A DNA stretch of 64,000 nucleotides from Gammaproteobacteria bacterium. GTDB taxonomy: Bacteria > Pseudomonadota > Gammaproteobacteria > Xanthomonadales > Wenzhouxiangellaceae. Every line of letters starts with the position of its first letter. The first letter of the stretch is position 1. The notes beneath the pieces are model-generated. The model ran no database searches. It was not told the DNA's origin and saw only the letters and a program-made list of their open reading frames with translations. The DNA lies in contig JAHJQV010000027.1 in the NCBI GenBank assembly GCA_018819105.1, positions 62,001-126,000 on the forward strand, written 5' to 3'. The position numbers and the translations under genes are program-made. This document shows positions 29,643 through 40,508 of the stretch, piece after piece.

Positions 29643-30808
29643 TCATCCACTCGCTGCTCGACACCGACATCTACAAATACTCCATGATGCAGGCCGTGCT
29701 GCACCAGTTTCCCGGTGCCGAGGTGGAATACCAGTTCCGCTGCCGCACCGCCGATGTGGATCTGCGACCACTGCAGCGCGATCTGGAGCGCGAAATCGAG
29801 CACCTGTGCACGCTAAGGCTGGAACCCGACGAACTCAACTTCCTGCACAGCCAGCGCTACCTGAAAAACGATTTCATCGAGTTTCTGCGCCTGTTTCATC
29901 TGCAATCGCGGTTTATCGACATCGCCGAGCACAACGGCCAGCTACAGCTCACCATCCGCGGCCCATGGCTGCACACCATCCTGTTTGAAGTGCCGCTGCT
30001 GGCCATCATCAGCGAGCTGTACTACCGCCATCAGCATCCGCAGCACGATCTGAGCGTCGGCCGCGAACGGCTGCAGCAGAAGATCGACCAGATCAAGGCG
30101 CTGGACCGGCCGGATGAGTTCATCTTTGCCGATTTCGGCACCCGTCGGCGCTTCTCGCGTGATTGGCACGAGCAGGTGGTGGCAACACTGGCTGCACAAC
30201 TGCCGAAATCTTTGCGCGGTACCAGCAACGTGCGCCTGGCCATGCAGCACAATCTGGTGCCGATCGGCACCATGGCACACGAATTCATCCAGGCCGCGCA
30301 GGCACTGGGGCCACGTCTGGCCGAGACGCAGCGGTTTGCATTTGAAGTGTGGGCGCGCGAATACCGTGGCGACCTGGGCATCGCCCTGTCCGACACCTAT
30401 AGCCTTAAAGCCTTCCTGCGCGATTTCGACATGTACTTCTGCAAGCTGTTCGACGGCGCACGGCAGGATTCCGGCGACCCCATCGCCTGGGGCGAAGCCA
30501 TGATCCAGCACTACCAGGACAACCGCGTTGACCCGAAAACCCGCAACCTGATCTTCTCCGACTCGCTCAACATCGACAAGGCAGCAGAAATCTGGCAGCG
30601 CTTCCGTGACCGCATCAACGTCTCCTTCGGCATCGGCACCAACCTCAGCAACGACACCGGCGTGGCACCGATCAACATCGTCATCAAAATGACCGCCTGC
30701 AACGGCCAGCCGGTGGTCAAACTGTCCGACTCACCCGGCAAAGTCGTCTCCACCGATCAGGAATACCTGGCCTGGGTGCGGAATGCTTTTGATGTGCCTG
30801 AGGGTTGA
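29639..30808 (+). CDS. pncB: Nicotinate phosphoribosyltransferase
   Basis: Converts nicotinate and PRPP to nicotinate mononucleotide, the step after PncA. 389 aa, typical. Features include the N-terminal LLDTDIYKYSMMQAVL, YQFRCR, FADFGTRRRFS, a core GTMAHEF and DSGDPIAWGE. Coupled to pncA by an ATGA overlap; the pair forms a complete nicotinamide salvage unit. Confidence 0.96.
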   Translation: MIIHSLLDTDIYKYSMMQAVLHQFPGAEVEYQFRCRTADVDLRPLQRDLEREIEHLCTLRLEPDELNFLHSQRYLKNDFIEFLRLFHLQSRFIDIAEHNGQLQLTIRGPWLHTILFEVPLLAIISELYYRHQHPQHDLSVGRERLQQKIDQIKALDRPDEFIFADFGTRRRFSRDWHEQVVATLAAQLPKSLRGTSNVRLAMQHNLVPIGTMAHEFIQAAQALGPRLAETQRFAFEVWAREYRGDLGIALSDTYSLKAFLRDFDMYFCKLFDGARQDSGDPIAWGEAMIQHYQDNRVDPKTRNLIFSDSLNIDKAAEIWQRFRDRINVSFGIGTNLSNDTGVAPINIVIKMTACNGQPVVKLSDSPGKVVSTDQEYLAWVRNAFDVPEG

Positions 30809-30881
30809 TGTGGCAGACGATCTGCGTTGAATGATGGCGACAATCCGCTAACAGCCCCCCCTGCTCAGTCAATGTTTAGCG

Positions 30882-31064
30882 TCATGCCTCGCGGCACTGG
30901 TAATTGCGCTGCATCACCTGAACTGAATCCCTGACGATTTCTCGTAGCATCTTCATGCCAATGTCTGACAGGCGTTTGATGTAAAGGCAGCTCTTTGCGG
31001 TCTTGTGCTTGCCCAGGTCCTGCAACTGCCCGGCATAATTAGAAAAGGCGGGCATAATGAGGAT
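30882..31064 (-). pseudogene. Remnant of a DUF1801-family gene (C-terminal third)
   Basis: The frame encodes LIMPAFSNYAGQLQDLGKHKTAKSCLYIKRLSD (in outline: MPAFSNY, LGKHKTAKSCLYIKRLSD), which matches the C-terminal part of DUF1801 proteins (LGKHKTGKSCLYIKRL). The N-terminal two-thirds are missing; the upstream sequence does not continue the family. It lies at the left edge of the accessory island, just beyond pncB. Probably decayed. Confidence 0.65.
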
Positions 31065-31160
31065 TATGGATGATGGGAGTACTGAGCTAATCTTTAGACT
31101 AACCGTCAGCAATTTACCGGCAACCGTGTTGAATAAGAGCTATTGCTATTAGACAATGCA

Positions 31161-31460
31161 TCAATTAGTTCCAAATTCGTGAAGAGTTGGAAAAAGAAAC
31201 AAGCACAGCACTGCGATCCCAATAATTGCTGCTTTTACCGCTAACTTGAATAATGAACTATGCCAGATTCTCTCGGATCTTTCTGAATTGGACCACCCTC
31301 CCGGATGTTCGTCATCGATAGTGATCAAGTGGCCTATAAATAACCAGGCAATAAAGCCGAGCAAAGTATAGAAATAAGGAACACCAAAGAACCATGATAA
31401 AGAGATAGCTACCAACCCTAACGCAAAAATGAACCCTACTAACCACTTACATAAATTCAT
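31161..31460 (-). CDS. Small two- to three-span membrane protein
   Basis: 99 aa, AT-rich compared with the chromosome. Hydrophobic segments at about residues 6-25, 28-48 and 70-92, with a polar loop (DDEHPGGWSNSERSERI) between. Not recognised. It directly follows an attC-like site and has the size and character of integron cassette proteins. Confidence 0.5.
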   Translation of the reverse strand: MNLCKWLVGFIFALGLVAISLSWFFGVPYFYTLLGFIAWLFIGHLITIDDEHPGGWSNSERSERIWHSSLFKLAVKAAIIGIAVLCLFLFPTLHEFGTN

Positions 31461-31482
31461 ATTATGACCACTAATTACCTAT

Positions 31483-31563
31483 GCTTAACAGTTCGTACCA
31501 TGAATCGAGAAGGGGAACTAAAACACGCCGCGATTCTGACGTCTTTTGTATCGAAAATTTAGC
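31483..31563 (-). other. attC-like recombination site (candidate)
   Basis: Read on the minus strand: ATTTAGC-complement end overlapping the upstream gene's stop codon, then TTCGATAC, an internal stem GAATCG/CGATTC, GTACGAA and a GTTAAGC end that fits GTTRRRY. TTCGATAC and GTACGAA pair with one unpaired A, the asymmetry typical of attC sites. Spacers are shorter than usual. Located between two orphan genes. Confidence 0.35.
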
Positions 31564-32281
31564 TTTCAACTCTGTTTAGCTCATCAGCCTTCCAGTCGAT
31601 ACGATCAAGAACGCTGAAATCGAAACCCTCGAACTGCTGACATGCACGAATTTCTGCGATCGCATTTTTGGAAGCTGCAACTATTGTAAATTCCAAATCA
31701 TAATCAGAACATACGCACCATGAACGATCTTCAGGCCACCAGTACTCTGGCCCAGATTGGGCCTCAGCGACCGACTGAATAGCGTCAAGCTCGTTTCTGT
31801 CGCCGACATATAGCGCTTCCTCAAGGTCCTTTATTGAGCAAAGGAAGAATTTGTAATACCAGCGATTTGTTGAGCTAAACTGCGCAAGAATTTTGGCTAG
31901 AGCATCCCGTAGGTCAGGTTCCAGTTCACCTTGAATAGCACCCAAGAGATAGCGCGGCCAGCCTTTCCGAAAAACTCTTTTAAACGAGTTAGAGCTTATA
32001 TACTTGTTGTATTCGACTCCGTACTTCTGGCAGAGATCATGCCACTTGATTCTTATCAGGTTACGCTCGTCAAATTCGTTCTCATTGCTCCACTGGATTT
32101 CTTCATCCAAAATTGACGCATCCCTATAGATCGGATGCATGATCTTGTAGTAAGCCTCGAAATGATCGGGAAGTAGATGTCTCACCGTATGCCCCTCGCC
32201 GCCATCAGGACGCCTCCCCAGTTCCCAAAGGTTCATGGAAATCCATTCGAAAGGTTCAAAGTTTGCGACACGCTCGACCAT
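31559..32281 (-). CDS. Hypothetical protein of a GGEGH-containing orphan family
   Basis: 240 aa, AT-rich. Conserved-looking features: NLWELG near residue 17, GGEGHTVRHLLPDHFEAYYKIMHPIY (two-part motif around residues 28-53), YWWPEDRSWCVCSDYDLEFT and a final RIDWKADELN. No known domain is assigned. A decayed second copy of its N terminus lies at 38226-38412, so the family was present twice in this island. Soluble, no signal peptide. An immunity or toxin-related role is possible but unsupported. Confidence 0.65.
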   Translation of the reverse strand: MVERVANFEPFEWISMNLWELGRRPDGGEGHTVRHLLPDHFEAYYKIMHPIYRDASILDEEIQWSNENEFDERNLIRIKWHDLCQKYGVEYNKYISSNSFKRVFRKGWPRYLLGAIQGELEPDLRDALAKILAQFSSTNRWYYKFFLCSIKDLEEALYVGDRNELDAIQSVAEAQSGPEYWWPEDRSWCVCSDYDLEFTIVAASKNAIAEIRACQQFEGFDFSVLDRIDWKADELNRVES

Positions 32282-32374
32282 AAAAGCTAAATCCTGAGTG
32301 AATCGATACAGTTTTGAGTGGCCGGTGAAGGACTCAACCTTACCGGAACGATCCAGGGGAACTTGTTATATATT

Positions 32375-32692
32375 TCAGCTTTCACGGAACCAATTTTTTT
32401 TGAAATATACGCGCCATGAATAGTAAAAAGAAACTGGCCATATGAGTATGTTCGCCCAGCCCCAACGAATCAATCGGTTTCTGAAGGCATGGGATGCGCT
32501 TGCTATTACGTTCGCGAAAATTGAGAGCATTGCGAAAGTAAGGAGCAATACTTCAGGCAAGAGCATCTCCTCTCCCGTTACGACACCATCATTCATTCTG
32601 GGGTCACGACGAAAATATAACCCGATGACCACAAACAATATAAGGCCACTTGTAGTGAAAATGTTGAAATATAGACGATGTAATAGCGGCAT
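32375..32692 (-). CDS. Small membrane protein, cassette-like
   Basis: 105 aa from the ATG at 32692, AT-rich. Hydrophobic segments at about residues 7-26, 44-66 and 80-98. The C terminus is basic. Not recognised. A GCGTTATGT end resembling an attC R' box lies two bases before the start codon. Longer readings of the frame cover the gajB downstream region and are not supported. Confidence 0.5.
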   Translation of the reverse strand: MPLLHRLYFNIFTTSGLILFVVIGLYFRRDPRMNDGVVTGEEMLLPEVLLLTFAMLSIFANVIASASHAFRNRLIRWGWANILIWPVSFYYSWRVYFKKNWFRES

Positions 32693-32800
32693 ATTACATA
32701 ACGCATTGCCGATTAATGGCTGACGTGAAACGGCCGCCCATCTGCATCGCCTTGTTGGGCAGCTCCCTGTCGGCAAAGCCAGGCTGCGCTGCAGTGGTGA

Positions 32801-34846
32801 TCAAGAGTACCATCTCGGAGATCCGTTTACGACTTCCGCCACGTGCCATCCGCGCGCCTTCAACGTCTGCAAGTGCCCGTTTAACGCCGCATCGTCGCCA
32901 AGAGCTGATCGGGGAACGGCAAGGCAAACGAGGTGGCTGGGCCGCGTCATCGCAACGTAGGTCTGGAGCAGTCGATCAAGGTTCTGGGCTCCCGCTTTCC
33001 CGCCGTTCACGTTCTCGCCCAGGAGCCAAGGCAGCAGCTTCTGCGATGAGTGTCCGTTCCGGAACGTGTTGAGCAGCAACGTGGCCAGATGGGTCTGCCC
33101 CTTGACCGAGTGGATTGAACCCAAGCAAATGTCGACCCGCCGCCCGCACTCGTCCGCGACACGATAAACGTTGGGGCCTGCATCGGTCGGAGACGTTGGT
33201 GCGTCTACCATCAGCGACGGATCGTGCTCGTCCCAGTAAAGGAAGCCCGCCGCGCGCCCCTCGTCCTCGACGGTCTCGCAAAGGGCGCGTGCGATGCTGA
33301 GGATCTCAGCTTTCCGCACGTTCCAGGTAGCCGATGTGAGCGGCATCCATTCCATGAGGAAGGCGCAAAGGAGATCACGGTAGGCCGAGGCTGCTCTCGG
33401 GTCGCCCTTGAGGCCATTCGCCACGACTCGATGTGTGCCAACTCGGCGCCCCAGGCGGGACGCGTCGCCGATTCGATGAGCCAAGCGCGAGACACCAGAG
33501 GCAATCTTCTCGACGCCGGACGAAAGGTCGTGCCCGTCCCGCACGGCAGCCTGTGCTACTCGTACATACTGGATCAAGCTTTCTGGGTGAGGGTCGCGGC
33601 GCGCGATCTCCGCGGTATAGCCGGACCAGTAGTGCGGCACGGTCTTCGGGTAGTGATCGTGGCCCGGTTTGATCTCGGGGTGAGCTCTGTGTACCGCGCC
33701 AACCGCGGAGACGGCCCCCTCAGCGAGGGCGCTGTCACTGAAGACCGAGAGCACATGATGTCCAAACATGTCCAATGCTCCCGTCGGGCTCTCGTCCGGG
33801 AACACGAACACCGCATGAGGACAGCACTCGGGGGAATTGCGGACCGTCCGCGGGCCCACGCCCTGGAGGCCATTCGGGCCTACAGGATTGACTGCGAATG
33901 GCGAAGCAAGCGCTGCAATCGAGGGACCGAACCGGAAGCTGTTCGGGATTTCGAGGCACCTGTCCGGATCGGGAAACACATCCGCTCCCTCGGCATCCGG
34001 GGGAGCCCCATCGTAGATGGCCTGGTTCGGGTCACCAACGCGCTGAACGACAACCTCCGACGAGTCGCGACGGAATACGGTGGCAACGACGCCGACCTGA
34101 AGCTCGGATGTGTCCTGCATTTCATCGATGATCACCAGCGGAAATCGACGCTGGAGCCAGTGCGCAACGGCCGGACAGTCCTGAAGAAGAGCCTTCGCCC
34201 AGACGAACATCTCGTCGTAGCAGAAGAAGCCCGCGCTAGTTGCGGCCTCGATCGCTTGCCGAGCAAACTTGTGCGTCTTGGTATTCGGCCCCGCCGGGAA
34301 GGGCTTTCCTATGTCGAATCGTAGGTCCCGATCGCGAATCCGCAGCTTGTCGAAGCCGCTGTACCGCTTTTCGAGAAACGACTGCACCGTGTGATATCCG
34401 CGCTCCCCTATCGCCCGACGCCGGTAGGCGGTGGCCACATCATCGTCGATAGTGGCCACCGGGAAGCCGTTTGAGTTCAGCCACGGTAGCGCCAGGAACC
34501 GGTTCACGAAGCCGTGGATGGTGTCGATAAAGTGCGGGTAGGCGAGCAGCTGCTGCCCGACAACAGTGCCGCGCAGACGCCGCTGGTTCTCCTCGCGTGC
34601 TGCATTGGTGTGGGAGAGCACGCAGATGCCCTTCGTCCGGTGCGGCCACTTCCGGGCCATCATGGCGAGCTTGGCGACGATCAGCGTCGTCTTGCCGCTC
34701 CCTGGGCACGCGGACACGTCGAGCGTCGTCCGAGCGCGAAGGAACTTCTGTCGGGACTGGTCGAACTCGCGCAGGCCCATGATACGGCAGATCCACTCGA
34801 CATCCTCGTCGGCGACCTGCGGAATGACGGACTGCGGGTCAGCCAT
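32801..34846 (-). CDS. gajB: UvrD-like helicase, Gabija GajB-type
   Basis: 681 aa from the ATG at 34846, overlapping the gajA stop by eight bases. Superfamily 1 helicase motifs: Walker A SACPGSGKTTLI (about residue 45), LSHTNAAREE (Ia), Walker B VIIDEMQDTSE (about residue 236), GDPNQAIYDG (III), SVKGQTH (V) and TYVAMTRPSHL (VI). Paired with an OLD-family nuclease it gives the Gabija anti-phage arrangement, in which GajB senses or remodels DNA/nucleotides for GajA. Longer than the best-known GajB (about 494 aa). The frame extends upstream but that part is antisense to nothing recognisable and overlaps gajA. Confidence 0.85.
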   Translation of the reverse strand: MADPQSVIPQVADEDVEWICRIMGLREFDQSRQKFLRARTTLDVSACPGSGKTTLIVAKLAMMARKWPHRTKGICVLSHTNAAREENQRRLRGTVVGQQLLAYPHFIDTIHGFVNRFLALPWLNSNGFPVATIDDDVATAYRRRAIGERGYHTVQSFLEKRYSGFDKLRIRDRDLRFDIGKPFPAGPNTKTHKFARQAIEAATSAGFFCYDEMFVWAKALLQDCPAVAHWLQRRFPLVIIDEMQDTSELQVGVVATVFRRDSSEVVVQRVGDPNQAIYDGAPPDAEGADVFPDPDRCLEIPNSFRFGPSIAALASPFAVNPVGPNGLQGVGPRTVRNSPECCPHAVFVFPDESPTGALDMFGHHVLSVFSDSALAEGAVSAVGAVHRAHPEIKPGHDHYPKTVPHYWSGYTAEIARRDPHPESLIQYVRVAQAAVRDGHDLSSGVEKIASGVSRLAHRIGDASRLGRRVGTHRVVANGLKGDPRAASAYRDLLCAFLMEWMPLTSATWNVRKAEILSIARALCETVEDEGRAAGFLYWDEHDPSLMVDAPTSPTDAGPNVYRVADECGRRVDICLGSIHSVKGQTHLATLLLNTFRNGHSSQKLLPWLLGENVNGGKAGAQNLDRLLQTYVAMTRPSHLVCLAVPRSALGDDAALNGHLQTLKARGWHVAEVVNGSPRWYS

Positions 34847-36881
34847 CCGCGTCCTCCACGGGGCTCTCGTCGTCGGCTGACACAGCTGGGATCTCGGCTC
34901 CAGTCGCGTGAGCAATGGCCGCGACAACGTAGGGCGGCAGCTTCCCGGCGAATCCTGCACTGTCGAAGTCGGCCGTCTCCCCTTGGGCGCTGAGGGTGTT
35001 GGCCAAGTACTGGGCGGCGATCGCTTTGGATGCGCCGCCCGAGTGGAAGAGCTTGTAGATGTTGCTGCACAGCACTGCTCGATCACCACCCGCCGACTCC
35101 ACGAGCTGCTCGAACTCCATCTTCGCGATCGCCTCGACGTCAGCAGTGGTCTTCTTCTCCTCCACGATTGCCCCGTCGTTCTTTGCCAGGCTGGCAGCGC
35201 TGTAGACCTCCTCGGCGAGGCCGCAATACGCGAGGTCGTACTCGAGCGTCCAATGGTCCGCGACGAACGTGCGGACGGACTGGCCGTCCGAGTCACATAG
35301 ATGCTCGCGCCATTCGGCCAGTGCCTGCTTCGTTGACTTGCTCTCATCCCCAAAGTGGCGCGTTGCTTTCCAACGTCGTCTCGTACTCTTCCACGTCTTG
35401 TCATCGTCGCCTGTGACTAGGCCGAGGATGGCTGGAGCGCAGTCGGGCATCACGTCCATGTCGGCGAGGTTGGCAACGGGGATGGAGACAGGACGTGAAG
35501 CGTCATCGGAGCGCTGGAAGATCTTGCTGAAGCGTCGGAGACCCGTCCCGCCGACGTTGACGACGGAAATGCCGTGCTCTGTCAGGTCAGTGCCCAGGAG
35601 CCGGGCTAGCGTGGGCAGCAACAGGGCCTCGGCGTCGCCCTCGACGATGATGACGCCGTGGGCGAAGAAGAGGTTGGACTTCGTCACGTCGAGGAAACGT
35701 TCCAGGAACCGATAGTCGCCGGTGCCCAGCTTGGTCTGGCCTTCGGCGAGGGAGAAAGCGCGTCCCCCCTCTAACATGACCAGATTCTCGAGCGGGATGA
35801 TGGACGCCAAATTCGGGCTGTGGGTCGACAGGATGACCTGGACCGCGCGGGGTGATTCCTTCACCTTGCCGGCGGCCGCACTCGATAGGAAGTCCATCAG
35901 CCGCAGCTGGCGTTGGGGGTGAAGGTGAGCTTCGGGCTCTTCGATGAGCAGGAGGGGCAACCCCTCGGGCTCACGTCCCAGCAGCAGCAGCTCGCACGCC
36001 ATGTAGAGGATGTTGTTCGAGCCGAGGCCGTAGTATCCGCGAGCGCTGGACGTCGATGCCTCGAACAGGCCGAGCTCGAGACGCTCTAGGATTCGACGCA
36101 GGCGAATCGAGTCGCTCCCGCTCTCAGTGAGGTCGATCCGGCCTTGCAGACTGTCGCCCCGCAGGAAGAGCGAGGACAGGTACTGAGTGTTGATCGCGGT
36201 CTCGGCTCCGCTAACACCCTGGTGCGCCTTCACGCTATGGCGGAGGTAGTCCGCCAGGCCCAGAAGGCTCAGCTTGCTCACTTCGGCTGGGTCGGCCGGA
36301 AGGACGTTCTCGTCAAAGGCCTCGCCCTGGCTGATCTCCGGAACGTTCGCCAGGATCTGCGAGAGGCGAGAGCCGCGACCGGACGACATCTCCCGTGCTG
36401 CGTCGCGGAGCGGCCGAAGGTAGGCACTCGAAAGCAGCTCGCGTACAGACGCCTCGAACGTTGGTCCCGCGCCGTCCACGCCGCTACGAACTGACACATC
36501 GACCCATCGACGAGCGCTGGGGGACTCGCTACGCCTTCGTGCCGACCAATTGACGATCAGCGAGACATTGGCGCCGTCGTATGTCAAGTACTCGGCGAAG
36601 GCCCCCTTCTCATCGTCGTTGAGATCACTCAGCTGGCACCGAATGAACATCTCGTCGGCCTGCACGCCAGCCGCATCGATGCGGAAGTCCTCGGGCTGGA
36701 CGCGGATGTAGCTCTGGTCCCGTGTAAGGAGCGCGTATCGGATGGCGTCGATCACCGCCGACTTCCCGCTGTCGTTGCGCCCGACAAGCGCGGTCACTCC
36801 GCTGCTGAACGCGAGCTCCAGTTTTTCGTCGTTGTCTCCGAACTGACGAAAGTTGCGCAGGGTTAGATGCGACAAGTACAA
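34839..36881 (-). CDS. gajA: OLD-family ATP-dependent endonuclease, Gabija GajA-type
   Basis: 680 aa from a TTG at 36881, which has AGAGGA seven bases upstream and gives the family N terminus (YLSHLTLRNFRQF); an ATG at 36929 would add 16 residues. ABC-type ATPase head: Walker A GRNDSGKSA near the N terminus, Walker B LLLIEEPEAHLHP, and VILSTHSPNL. TOPRIM nuclease domain: VIIVEGDAEALLLP (about residue 425 of the long form), NVGGTG and ANLADMDV with acidic metal ligands. Class 2 OLD proteins beside a UvrD-like helicase are GajA. GC-rich, unlike the flanking orphan genes. Confidence 0.88.
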   Translation of the reverse strand: MYLSHLTLRNFRQFGDNDEKLELAFSSGVTALVGRNDSGKSAVIDAIRYALLTRDQSYIRVQPEDFRIDAAGVQADEMFIRCQLSDLNDDEKGAFAEYLTYDGANVSLIVNWSARRRSESPSARRWVDVSVRSGVDGAGPTFEASVRELLSSAYLRPLRDAAREMSSGRGSRLSQILANVPEISQGEAFDENVLPADPAEVSKLSLLGLADYLRHSVKAHQGVSGAETAINTQYLSSLFLRGDSLQGRIDLTESGSDSIRLRRILERLELGLFEASTSSARGYYGLGSNNILYMACELLLLGREPEGLPLLLIEEPEAHLHPQRQLRLMDFLSSAAAGKVKESPRAVQVILSTHSPNLASIIPLENLVMLEGGRAFSLAEGQTKLGTGDYRFLERFLDVTKSNLFFAHGVIIVEGDAEALLLPTLARLLGTDLTEHGISVVNVGGTGLRRFSKIFQRSDDASRPVSIPVANLADMDVMPDCAPAILGLVTGDDDKTWKSTRRRWKATRHFGDESKSTKQALAEWREHLCDSDGQSVRTFVADHWTLEYDLAYCGLAEEVYSAASLAKNDGAIVEEKKTTADVEAIAKMEFEQLVESAGGDRAVLCSNIYKLFHSGGASKAIAAQYLANTLSAQGETADFDSAGFAGKLPPYVVAAIAHATGAEIPAVSADDESPVEDADG

Positions 36882-36970
36882 GATGAATCCTCTGGCTGGC
36901 GCAGGATCACTTCCATCTGGAATCTCCATGCGGCGGTCGCAAGCGAAGCCACCAGTAGCCTGCCCAACTT

Positions 36971-37546
36971 ATAATTAAGTAGGTGAAAATGCCGCATATC
37001 GAATATTGTGTCGGAAATTCCACCAATTACGTGAGCAACAGCCCAAAGGCAACTTATCCTATTGATGACAATGAGGGGCATAACATCAAATGCCGACGAT
37101 ATCTGCCTTAGCTGACCATCGTCACACGCTGTTGCTGTCCTGATTCGATCCATCTCTGCACCGCCCTGTGCTCCCTGCCCTGTCTGAATACTGCCTCAGC
37201 TCAGTCAGAAAAGCAATGCCTGCAGCACATTCACCATCGCGGATCAAGTTTTAGCGGTGCTGGATAGCCTGGCACTGACTTGATGGCAGTCCGCGGCGCA
37301 AAGCGGTCAGCGATGGGCAGTTCGGCAAGTTCCGGGCACCAGTGGCTAATTTAATCGGCCTTTGGGTCGTAGCGACGGGATTGCTCGACCACGTTGAACC
37401 AGCGGTCGCGGGTGTCGGTGCCGACGCCGGCCTGGTAAGCCCAGTTGCCCCTGTTGCTGGCGACGTCATATTCCATCAGCAGATGCTCGAACCAGGCGGC
37501 ACCGGCACGCCAGTTCAGCTGCAGATCCTTGACCAGAAAGCTGGCG
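36971..37546. repeat. Diverged ~0.55-kb direct repeat, copy 1
   Basis: Collinear with 38789-39334 over the cryD 3' end and the region downstream of it. Homology ends sharply at CCAGAAAGCTGGCG on the right; the left part is more diverged with small indels. Both copies also encode a short peptide beginning MDRI. Confidence 0.8.
37231..37546 (-). pseudogene. Truncated cryptochrome-DASH 3' fragment
   Basis: Encodes the last ~105 residues of the cryD product (FLVKDLQLNWRAGAAWFEHLL..., ending KLDPRW) but with an in-frame TAA after YDPKAD, so it cannot make the normal C terminus. It has no start region and is interrupted on the right by the yefM promoter. It is part of the direct repeat. Confidence 0.85.
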
Positions 37547-37579
37547 TCAGATTGCTTGTGATTGACAGGGCAACTTGTG

Positions 37580-37604
37580 TATAATTGTACGGTATTTCCG
37601 TACA
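37580..37604 (+). promoter_or_regulatory. yefM-yoeB promoter and palindromic operator
   Basis: TATAAT at 37580-37585 is followed at once by the perfect dyad TGTACGG-TATTT-CCGTACA (37586-37604), covering the probable transcription start. YefM proteins are known to bind palindromes built on TGTACA-like cores. Confidence 0.65.
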
Positions 37605-37620
37605 TGTGCTGGTGATTACG

Positions 37621-37893
37621 ATGGAAACTGTGAGTGTGAACAAGTTCAGGGAAAGCCTGAAAAAGCTTGTAGAACAGAGCATTAGCCGGCATGAGCCGCT
37701 TAGAGTCTCGCGGCGCGCTGGCCAGGACTTTGTGGTGATTGGTGCCGAAGACTGGGAGCGTGAGCAGGAAACCTTGTATATTCTGCAGAACAGTAGCCTG
37801 ATGCGGCAACTGGACGAGTCCGTTAAAACCCATATCGAGCGTAAAGGATACACGCCGACCAAAGAGCAAATGGATGAGATCGCTGGTGTTTGA
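37621..37893 (+). CDS. yefM: YefM/Phd-type antitoxin
   Basis: 90 aa from the ATG at 37621. N-terminal Phd/YefM DNA-binding domain (ETVSVNKFRESLKKLVEQ... PLRVSRRAGQDFVVIGAEDWE) and a C-terminal toxin-binding tail. It ends 20 bases into the yoeB gene, indicating coupling. Autoregulation through the upstream dyad is expected. Confidence 0.88.
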   Translation: METVSVNKFRESLKKLVEQSISRHEPLRVSRRAGQDFVVIGAEDWEREQETLYILQNSSLMRQLDESVKTHIERKGYTPTKEQMDEIAGV

Positions 37894-38146
37894 AGGCAGA
37901 ACCTGGGAGGCGTATGAGGCCATGCGCCAAAAGGACAAAAAGCTGCACGCCGCTGTTCGCCAGATTATAAAAGAGCTGATTCGTTGCGAAGACCCCGCTG
38001 TCGGGTTAGGTAAACCTGAACCTCTCAAGCATAACCTGACCGGGTTCTGGTCAAGGCGCATCAGCCAGAAGGACCGGATTGTGTATCGGTTCGATGAATC
38101 ATCAATCTATATCTTTGCCCTGGGTGGGCATTATGACGCGACGTAA
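37874..38146 (+). CDS. yoeB: YoeB/Txe-type toxin
   Basis: 90 aa ribosome-dependent mRNA interferase family. Family features: WEAYEAMRQKDKKLHAAVRQIIKELIR..., GKPEPLKHNLTGFWSRRISQKDRIVYRF, and the C-terminal ALGGHYD, containing the conserved Glu/Arg/His/Tyr set (E of KPEPLK, R of SRRI and DRIVYR, H and Y near the end). Intact. The module occupies the gap between the two copies of the cryD repeat. Confidence 0.92.
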   Translation: MRSLVFEGRTWEAYEAMRQKDKKLHAAVRQIIKELIRCEDPAVGLGKPEPLKHNLTGFWSRRISQKDRIVYRFDESSIYIFALGGHYDAT

Positions 38147-38184
38147 CACCGACACTCATCGGTGCCGTATCGCAAAGCGCTGAC

Positions 38185-38215
38185 GACACCTGAACCGCAT
38201 AGCGGTTCTGGCGTC
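38185..38215. terminator. Hairpin downstream of yoeB
   Basis: GACACC-T-GAACCGC-ATA-GCGGTTC-T-GGCGTC forms a 13-pair stem with one mismatch and one G-T pair. It has no T-run, so it is either a weak terminator or a remnant of a recombination-site stem. Confidence 0.4.
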
Positions 38216-38225
38216 CGTTGCGGCA

Positions 38226-38412
38226 AAATATTAGCTGTCGATTCTGTCAAGATTGATGTATTCGTATAGATTGGATATATGATTTCGTAGTTTGCTTCGA
38301 AACGATCTGGGAGTAGATGCCTTATCGAGTGCCCCTGGCCACCGTCAAGACTCTGCGGTTCTCAAATGCCTCTGAAAATCTATTCAAAGAGTTCAAAGTC
38401 TGCGACACGCTT
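38226..38412 (-). pseudogene. Remnant of the GGEGH orphan family (N terminus)
   Basis: Translation aligns with the N-terminal 60 residues of the protein at 31559-32281 (KRVADFELFE versus ERVANFEPFE; GGQGHSIRHLLPDRFEANYEI versus GGEGHTVRHLLPDHFEAYYKI), but has two in-frame stops, no ATG and no C-terminal part. It begins right after the attC-like site at 38422-38517. Confidence 0.82.
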
Positions 38413-38421
38413 GGCAAAAAT

Positions 38422-38517
38422 AGCCAACGCCTGCAATAACCGGCAGACGATGCACAGCAGCGGCTGTCCTGCGCAGGCCATGCAGTGGCCGTAGCGAAGT
38501 TGATTGCCTTGTTATGC
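38422..38517 (-). other. attC-like recombination site (candidate)
   Basis: On the minus strand: GCATAAC containing the upstream gene's TAA stop, a 3-base spacer, GCAATCAAC, a structured middle, GTTATTGC, a 4-base spacer and GTTGGCT. GCAATCAAC pairs with GTTATTGC leaving a single unpaired C, as in attC L''/L' boxes. The outer ends roughly fit RYYYAAC and GTTRRRY. Confidence 0.45.
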
Positions 38518-38766
38518 GTTTGCACTACGCGCCCCAACAATTGCGAACCAAAAGAGCGCCACACCAGCTAATATAACCGAAAGCGCCGTATGGTTTGGCT
38601 CTATGCCACGAACATAAATCCAAGGCGATACTGCCATTGCCATTGAAATAAGCATGTATGCAAGTTGCGGCCACCTTTTTGAACGATTCATCTTCCTCCG
38701 CCAGGAATTCAACAGAAAAGTGCCGGCAGGAATGAAAATAATCATGAAAGCTTCAAATATTCCCAT
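38512..38766 (-). CDS. Small membrane protein, cassette-like
   Basis: 84 aa, AT-rich, with hydrophobic segments at about residues 3-20, 34-52 and 61-79 and a basic loop (RRKMNRSKRW). Not recognised. Its TAA stop lies inside the attC-like site, a hallmark of gene cassettes, and the next reading frame (now a remnant) starts right after that site. Confidence 0.5.
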   Translation of the reverse strand: MGIFEAFMIIFIPAGTFLLNSWRRKMNRSKRWPQLAYMLISMAMAVSPWIYVRGIEPNHTALSVILAGVALFWFAIVGARSANA

Positions 38767-38788
38767 ATTTATCTATGATAAATAACTT

Positions 38789-39334
38789 TGAATTAGTAGG
38801 CGTAAACGCCGCATATGACGTCATCAACAGCCCAAGGGCGGCTTACCTTGCTGATTTCAGTGAAGCGCATAAGATCGCATGTCGACGATATCAGCCTATT
38901 CAGACTATCGTCATGCGCTGTTGGTGTACAGATTCTGTCCATCACTGCACCACCCTGTGCTCCCCGCTCTGTCTGAATACTGCCTCACATCAGGCCAGAA
39001 TACAATGCCTGACATCATTCACCAGCGCGGATCAAGCATTATCGATGCTGGATAGTCTGGCACTGCAGTGCTCGCAGCCCACGGTGCAAAGCGGTCAGCG
39101 ATGGGCAGTTCCGCGAGTTCCGGGCACCAGTGGCTGATGTATTCGGTCTTTGGGTCGTAGCGACGGGATTGCTCGACCACGTTGAACCAGCGGGCGCGGG
39201 TGTCGGTGCCAACGCCGGCCTGATAGGCCCAGTTGCCCCAGTTGCTGGCGACGTCGTAGTCCAGCAGCAGATGCTCGAACCAGGCGGCTCCGGCTCGCCA
39301 GTCCAGCTGCAGATCCTTGACCAGAAAGCTGGCG
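38789..39334. repeat. Diverged ~0.55-kb direct repeat, copy 2
   Basis: The probable original: it includes the intact 3' end of cryD and its downstream region, with a small open frame (38793-38942, 49 codons, MDRI start). Pairs with 36971-37546. Confidence 0.8.
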
Positions 39335-40425
39335 ACGTTCTGGCGACCGCGATTGGACATATAGCCGGTGGCCTGCAGTTCACGCATGTTGGCATCGATC
39401 ATGGGGATGCCGGTGGCACCCTGGGTCCAGGCAGCAAATTGCTCGTGCTGGCGCTGGTCAAACCGGTCAAAGGCACGCAGTCCGTGGATGGGCTGGTCAC
39501 GCAGACCGACAAAGCGGAACAAGGCATTGCCAGTGTGTTGCAGCAGCCAGCGGAAGTATTCGCGCCAGAGCAGCTCGAACTTGAGCCAGTAAGTGGATTC
39601 GTTGGCGCTCACATCGGCTTCAAAGCGTTCGATTTCCGCCCAGACATGGCGCACCGACAGACTGCCATCGGCCAGCCACGGCGACAGTTTGCTGGAATCG
39701 TCGTTGTGCAGCATGCCGTTGCGGGTCTGTTTGTAATTCAGGATGCATTGCCCCTGGTGCAGATAATGTTGCAGCCGCTGCAGTCCGGCCTGTTCGCCAC
39801 CGCAAAACCGTGGCGGTGATGACAATGACTCGGATTGACTCTGTTGCATCAACGCCTGCGGCCAAACTGGAACATCCTCCAGCAATGGTGGCGGCAGGCG
39901 CGTGATGACGGCGCATGGCGACTGCGGCTGCAGGCGCTTTTCCACCTTGCGCCGGAACGCACTGAAGCTCATCGGCCAGCGCTCGGCGGCGATGGGCAGT
40001 TGCGGGTACAGCCGGTTGTCCAGGCTTGTGATCAGCTTGCTGCCGCCCGCAGGCAAGGTCTGATCCAGCAGCTTGAGCAGTCGCTGCAGCTGCCCTGCTT
40101 CCTCGCTGCCGGGAGCATCATTGACAAACACCTGATCGATGTCGTGGGCTGCCACCAGTGTCGCGATCTGCCTGGCGCTGTCACCGCACAGCACCAGCAG
40201 GCGTTGCCCCAGCGCTTCCAGTTGCTCTGCAAGGGCTTGCAGTGACTGCGCCAGAAAGCGCCAGCGATGCGCATGCCGACGCGGCCAGCCCCAGTCTGTC
40301 GGCGCCAGCTGGCTGTCTTCAATGACATACACCAGCAGCAGACGATCACAGGCCGCTGCCGCCTGCAGCAGTGGATTGTCGTGCAGACGCAGTTCGCCGC
40401 GCAGCCAGACAAGGCCGTTTGTCAT
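39019..40425 (-). CDS. Cryptochrome DASH (photolyase family)
   Basis: FAD flavoprotein of the photolyase/cryptochrome superfamily; DASH members repair single-stranded or looped cyclobutane dimers and may sense light. 468 aa. N-terminal Rossmann domain (GLVWLRGELRLHDNPLL), then the FAD domain with YKQTRNGMLHNDDSSKLSPWLADGSLS, FELLWREYFRWLL, and TGYMSNRGRQNVASFLVKDL, characteristic of the DASH branch. The C terminus ends SIMLDPRW. The 3' end is duplicated at 37231-37546. Confidence 0.92.
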   Translation of the reverse strand: MTNGLVWLRGELRLHDNPLLQAAAACDRLLLVYVIEDSQLAPTDWGWPRRHAHRWRFLAQSLQALAEQLEALGQRLLVLCGDSARQIATLVAAHDIDQVFVNDAPGSEEAGQLQRLLKLLDQTLPAGGSKLITSLDNRLYPQLPIAAERWPMSFSAFRRKVEKRLQPQSPCAVITRLPPPLLEDVPVWPQALMQQSQSESLSSPPRFCGGEQAGLQRLQHYLHQGQCILNYKQTRNGMLHNDDSSKLSPWLADGSLSVRHVWAEIERFEADVSANESTYWLKFELLWREYFRWLLQHTGNALFRFVGLRDQPIHGLRAFDRFDQRQHEQFAAWTQGATGIPMIDANMRELQATGYMSNRGRQNVASFLVKDLQLDWRAGAAWFEHLLLDYDVASNWGNWAYQAGVGTDTRARWFNVVEQSRRYDPKTEYISHWCPELAELPIADRFAPWAASTAVPDYPASIMLDPRW

Positions 40426-40508
40426 CGTCTCTCTCCTGTCATTGATACATTGTCATTGGTTCGCCGGACGGCCACAATGAGATGGTCTGTTTGTGCGAGA
40501 ATGACCGC

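Follow-up and report, generated by a model that had tools for sequence, protein, structure and literature searches.

Anti-phage gene cassettes of Vibrio and of mobile integrons are reportedly the subject of 2025 work by Darracq, Getz and Kieffer. In such cassettes, as described in two papers (PMC12409362, PMC12444791), defence genes lie between attC sites in the orientation of the array, an arrangement apparently shared by the locus analysed here. One of these papers portrays integron-borne defence systems as streamlined, with systems of more than two genes being absent (PMC12409362); the present locus, in contrast, carries a full-size two-gene system of 4.27 kb, situated away from integrase genes. 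The literature that we searched, which lacked three 2025 papers on integron defence, contained no description of Gabija carried in an integron cassette, and the absence of such a description is therefore unproven.

The Gabija system of B. cereus VD045 (PDB 8SM3, 8U7I) consists, like the pair described below, of a protein combining an ABC ATPase with a TOPRIM domain (GajA) and of a UvrD-like helicase (GajB), and the two systems have in common the catalytic Glu and the DxD motif (TOPRIM residues E379, D432 and D434 of BcGajA; PMC10781630). However, their identity in structural alignment is just about 18%, and the B. cereus GajB comprises approximately 494 aa, compared with 681 aa in the protein studied here. 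The class 2 OLD nucleases of Burkholderia pseudomallei and Xanthomonas campestris (PDB 6NK8, 6NJV) resemble our GajA in the TOPRIM region, for which they were the best single-sequence PDB matches, but these structures were solved for isolated TOPRIM domains only. With the Gabija systems represented by the PADLOC profiles PDLC00099 and PDLC00105 the pair shares full-length matches, gene order and a stop/start overlap; the profiles have 626 and 649 positions, the proteins themselves being slightly longer (680 and 681 aa).

The window, i.e. the whole 64-kb stretch of DNA analysed, carries both genes on its minus strand (Table 1). The first-pass annotation had placed here an OLD/TOPRIM protein overlapping by eight bases with a UvrD-like helicase, and both ORFs were confirmed, together with their 8-bp overlap (36881-34839 and 34846-32801). 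We consider it very probable that they constitute a two-gene Gabija system, intact and belonging to the long subfamily, that was horizontally acquired as an integron cassette and resides in an attC cluster with no integrase next to it. This cluster occupies a variable position flanked by the genes for NAPRTase and a YihG-type acyltransferase.

Table 1. Features of the Gabija locus and its surroundings (positions in the window)
Feature	Position	Strand	Description and basis
240-aa orphan ORF	31559..32281	minus	Located after the Gabija cassette; no database match
Candidate degenerate attC	32695..32762	minus	11.9 bits, E 1.3; 39 bp past the gajB stop; R'' CTGCCCAAC, R' GTTATGT
Inferred Gabija cassette	32702..36967	minus	4,266 bp (4.27 kb); gajA-gajB and attC in the usual order, G^TT core at each end
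gajB	32801..34846	minus	UvrD-like SF1A helicase, 681 aa; PADLOC, Pfam UvrD-helicase, AF2 model
gajA	34839..36881	minus	Class 2 OLD nuclease (ABC ATPase + TOPRIM), 680 aa, TTG start
Gabija cassette 5' core	36960..36968	minus	GTTGGGCAG; 79 bp upstream of gajA
Photolyase 3'-end remnant and downstream DNA	36966..37535	minus	Diverged copy of 38784-39323; repeat search and BLAST, 85% identity over the best part
YefM-YoeB toxin-antitoxin pair	37621..38146	plus	Pfam PF02604, PF06769; TIGR02116 over cut-off
Clear attC	38421..38519	minus	46.5 bits, E 7.7e-9; end of a small cassette with the 84-aa ORF
84-aa ORF	38512..38766	minus	Ends in the clear attC; from the ORF list; no Pfam match over cut-off

The assignment to Gabija rests on profile scores and on phyletic distribution. 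The best matches of the two proteins were the PADLOC models of GajA (PDLC00099, 646 bits, E 2.9e-194) and GajB (PDLC00105, 587 bits, E 1.5e-176), both full-length, with non-Gabija models far behind (AriA 91 bits, RTasHel 57 bits); the profile search that the first-pass annotation had proposed as a check has thus upheld its naming of the system, and, judged by these scores, neither of the outcomes that it had named as refuting holds. Pfam domains AAA_15 and OLD-like_TOPRIM were detected over cut-off in GajA, and UvrD-helicase in GajB. The motifs that it cited are genuine and are conserved in an alignment of 34 GajA and 33 GajB sequences. The TOPRIM residues E414, D474, D476 and K619 of GajA and the Walker-motif residues G39-K40 and E314-E315 (numbered from the TTG) are invariant in all 34; E414 corresponds by alignment to BcGajA E379, and D474/D476 correspond by motif to D432/D434. 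Likewise, the helicase motifs of GajB (GSGKT, DEMQD, GDPNQAI and YVAMTRP) are conserved in the 33 aligned sequences. The TTG start codon of gajA (36881) has the sequence AGAGGA 7 bases upstream, and the closest homologue (locus L027, 79% identical) begins with ATG at the equivalent residue. A class 3 OLD protein or retron is not supported: the partner of GajA is a helicase, and no reverse transcriptase, which together with an ncRNA marks such systems, was found by Pfam in the neighbouring ORFs. Judged from its sequence, gajA-gajB is an unexceptional and intact member of a long Gabija subfamily that is already known, although its apparent carrier is unusual.

Among the 84,980 species genomes scanned, 55 related loci were detected in other genomes, with GajA identities to the window copy reaching 79%. 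In 53 of them the adjacent gene downstream of GajA encodes a GajB homologue in the same orientation (the two exceptions being a locus at a contig edge and a merely distant relative), usually with a stop/start overlap of 4 or 8 bp. Across 31 loci, GajA identity and GajB identity to the window copies are correlated (Spearman 0.89), and substitutions are mostly synonymous (pN 0.12 and pS 0.59 for gajA and its closest homologue), which argues that purifying selection has preserved the two genes together. Some of the relatives have other defence genes as neighbours, namely Shedu, a type IV restriction enzyme, or a DNA methylase plus PLD helicase.

The nearest GajA homologues were found in Planctomycetota and Alphaproteobacteria, and a close GajB is present in only one of 120 other genomes searched, most of which belong to the family and order of the host. 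In the only congener examined, the NAPRTase and YihG-type acyltransferase genes are 1.5 kb apart and enclose a PIN-domain toxin, with neither Gabija nor photolyase, compared with 9.7 kb (30808-40482) in the window. Taking these observations together, horizontal acquisition appears to be the simplest reading for gajAB. The toxin gene of the congener is accompanied by a small upstream ORF (L117 1528-2432), which suggests a recurrent insertion spot. The segment had previously been described as an island of orphan genes; it is indeed a variable island, but several of its parts are recognisable (the YefM-YoeB pair, a DASH-type photolyase and attC sites). No tRNA marking its border was found. The GC contrast pointed out earlier is also real (61-64% in the pair vs 43-54% in the adjacent kilobases), but the GC3 of gajA-gajB (0.75-0.79) equals that of ordinary chromosomal flanking genes (0.68-0.79); it is therefore the small AT-rich neighbours, and not the operon, that are odd.

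For the detection of attC sites we built a covariance model from 22 sites of the host genome and of relatives' arrays, with R''/R' and L''/L' pairs that we assigned manually and that are supported by covariation; RNAalifold, applied to the same alignment, gave no pairs. Scored at every position of the window, the model produced two matches, both on the strand of the operon and neither used in building it. A 16-nt stretch of the clear attC is identical to part of one attC arm in the host's integron on contig C1. The site following gajB scores far below the 22-82 bits obtained with the same model for the attC sites of real arrays; it must therefore be regarded as degenerate and in need of independent support. 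A strict attC motif scan (AAC...GTT plus hairpin) returned nothing in the island, and genuine sites in this family depart from the motif. When folded as single strands, the two window sites did not outperform shuffled sequences, and their folding is not counted as support.

In a true cassette, the R'' core of the attC is the inverse of the first bases of the cassette. The 5' core GTTGGGCAG upstream of gajA is the exact inverse (9/9 bases) of the R'' core CTGCCCAAC at 32754-32762, and each of these sequences occurs once in the window. In a calibration with 43 true pairs (consecutive cassettes in relatives' arrays) and 731 false pairs, an inverse core of 9 nt was reached by 56% of true partners vs 1.6% of non-partners. 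The operon is thus most likely a horizontally acquired, two-gene cassette, as far as can be judged from these cores and the attC. Its size is large for a cassette, and with two genes it fits, at the upper edge, the rule of at most two genes given in PMC12409362. As no integrase adjoins it, the region is a predicted small CALIN (as defined in PMC12444791). Around 54 related operons no convincing attC was found (best score 15.9 bits, E 1.5); the cassette context therefore seems to be local to the host genome.

The prototypes from B. cereus have PDB chains of approximately 578 and 494 aa; the window proteins are longer by about 100 (GajA) and 190 (GajB) residues, and this true difference had, together with the GC contrast, led to the proposal of a Gabija variant with additional functional domains. 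Long proteins are, however, the norm of the whole subfamily (median lengths of 675 aa for GajA and 673 aa for GajB), and the Pfam scan revealed no further domains in either. The AF2 model of GajA (mean pLDDT 87) has the standard GajA fold and aligns end to end (residues 1-662) with B. cereus GajA (8u7i: Z 21.2, 522 residues, 5.1 Å; 8x5i: Z 22.8, 451 residues, 4.8 Å); it also matched the Thermus OLD nuclease, as well as SMC-type ATPase heads, the latter with equally high scores but in the ATPase part only. The GajB model (pLDDT 86.6) aligns with PcrA and UvrD between residue 12 and about 678-680 (Z ~20-22, 420-440 residues, ~4-5 Å), and more poorly with B. cereus GajB (Z 15, ~350 residues, 8-9 Å). 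From this full-size UvrD/PcrA-like fold we infer that the 190 surplus residues of GajB represent UvrD-type accessory regions of full size rather than a new domain. The extra-domain variant, highly improbable in view of the lengths of the relatives and the folds of both models, was consequently rejected. It might be argued that with UvrD/PcrA as the nearest fold to GajB, and given the diversity of OLD proteins, the two genes encode a housekeeping DNA repair pair or another, non-Gabija combination of OLD protein and helicase. To this we attach hardly any credence, because the NCBIfam equivalog models of UvrD, Rep and PcrA reach at most 61 bits on GajB, against cut-offs of at least 965, and because close GajB relatives are so rare among the 120 genomes mentioned above.

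A more serious alternative accepts the operon as Gabija but explains its position between two attC sites as an accident of homologous recombination at a duplicated photolyase tail, and not as capture. The divergent second photolyase 3' end that directly precedes gajA, the reverse-oriented toxin-antitoxin pair nearby and the degenerate state of the attC past gajB are all consistent with such an event. Nevertheless, the similarity between the two photolyase tails ends at the G^TT core (as read by inspection; a global alignment runs past it) rather than at a random point, and beyond it one copy is followed by the 84-aa cassette and the other by the Gabija cassette. Moreover, the operon is flanked by the unique inverse core pair, of a length that is common among true cassettes and rare among false pairs. 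Accidental recombination is therefore unlikely, and acquisition of gajA-gajB as a cassette remains the preferred reading.

Phage defence, complex formation and DNA cleavage by GajAB are predicted by analogy with solved Gabija systems (PMC10781630, PMC10822852, PMC10568477). GajA would form an ATPase/TOPRIM core able to nick or cut DNA, while GajB would dock on it, its helicase motor working at abnormal or phage-processed DNA. During infection this motor might trigger cleavage by GajA, so that phage replication would be stopped. In Gabija, a GajA tetramer is joined by four GajB, and protection against phages depends on both genes. According to a proposal made in a preprint, phages become sensitive to Gabija through phage proteins antagonising RecBCD (PMC12407980). 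The search of 36800-37700 revealed no sigma-70-like promoter on the strand of the operon, which makes the expression of gajAB in its present position uncertain, and the genes may be silent at this site.

Two integron integrases scoring over the curated cut-off are encoded in the host genome, on contigs C1 and C68, and the cassette might be excised by these enzymes. The broader proposal, that full-length Gabija here is a functional integron cassette, that integrons can store and transfer defence systems comprising two genes and over 4 kb, and that the resident integrases can still mobilise this one, seems to us evenly balanced between true and false. Precise cassette carriage, if true, bears on the spread of Gabija-like systems, for the integron literature stresses small, streamlined defence cassettes (PMC12409362), and Gabija is here of full size, with matching cores.

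Several further features of the surroundings were observed. The two photolyase-tail copies (36966-37535 and 38784-39323) both lose their resemblance at the integron core, in a manner suggestive of a junction between two alleles of a single attachment site. The YefM-YoeB pair, on the plus strand, separates the two cassette segments and is accompanied by a promoter-like site (37556-37585). At 38248-38433, just past the clear attC, there is part of a related copy (73%) of the 240-aa ORF. On contig C1 (L023 10455-13122), which ends inside an integron array, the integrase gene is followed by genes resembling MerR, MerT and MerP (recognised by eye) and by an attC. The second integrase gene, on contig C68 (L024 1882-5239), is accompanied by an attC; a transposase-like gene flanks them on either side in two copies, and the integrase gene adjoins a cluster that resembles, by eye, the head genes of Mu-like phages.
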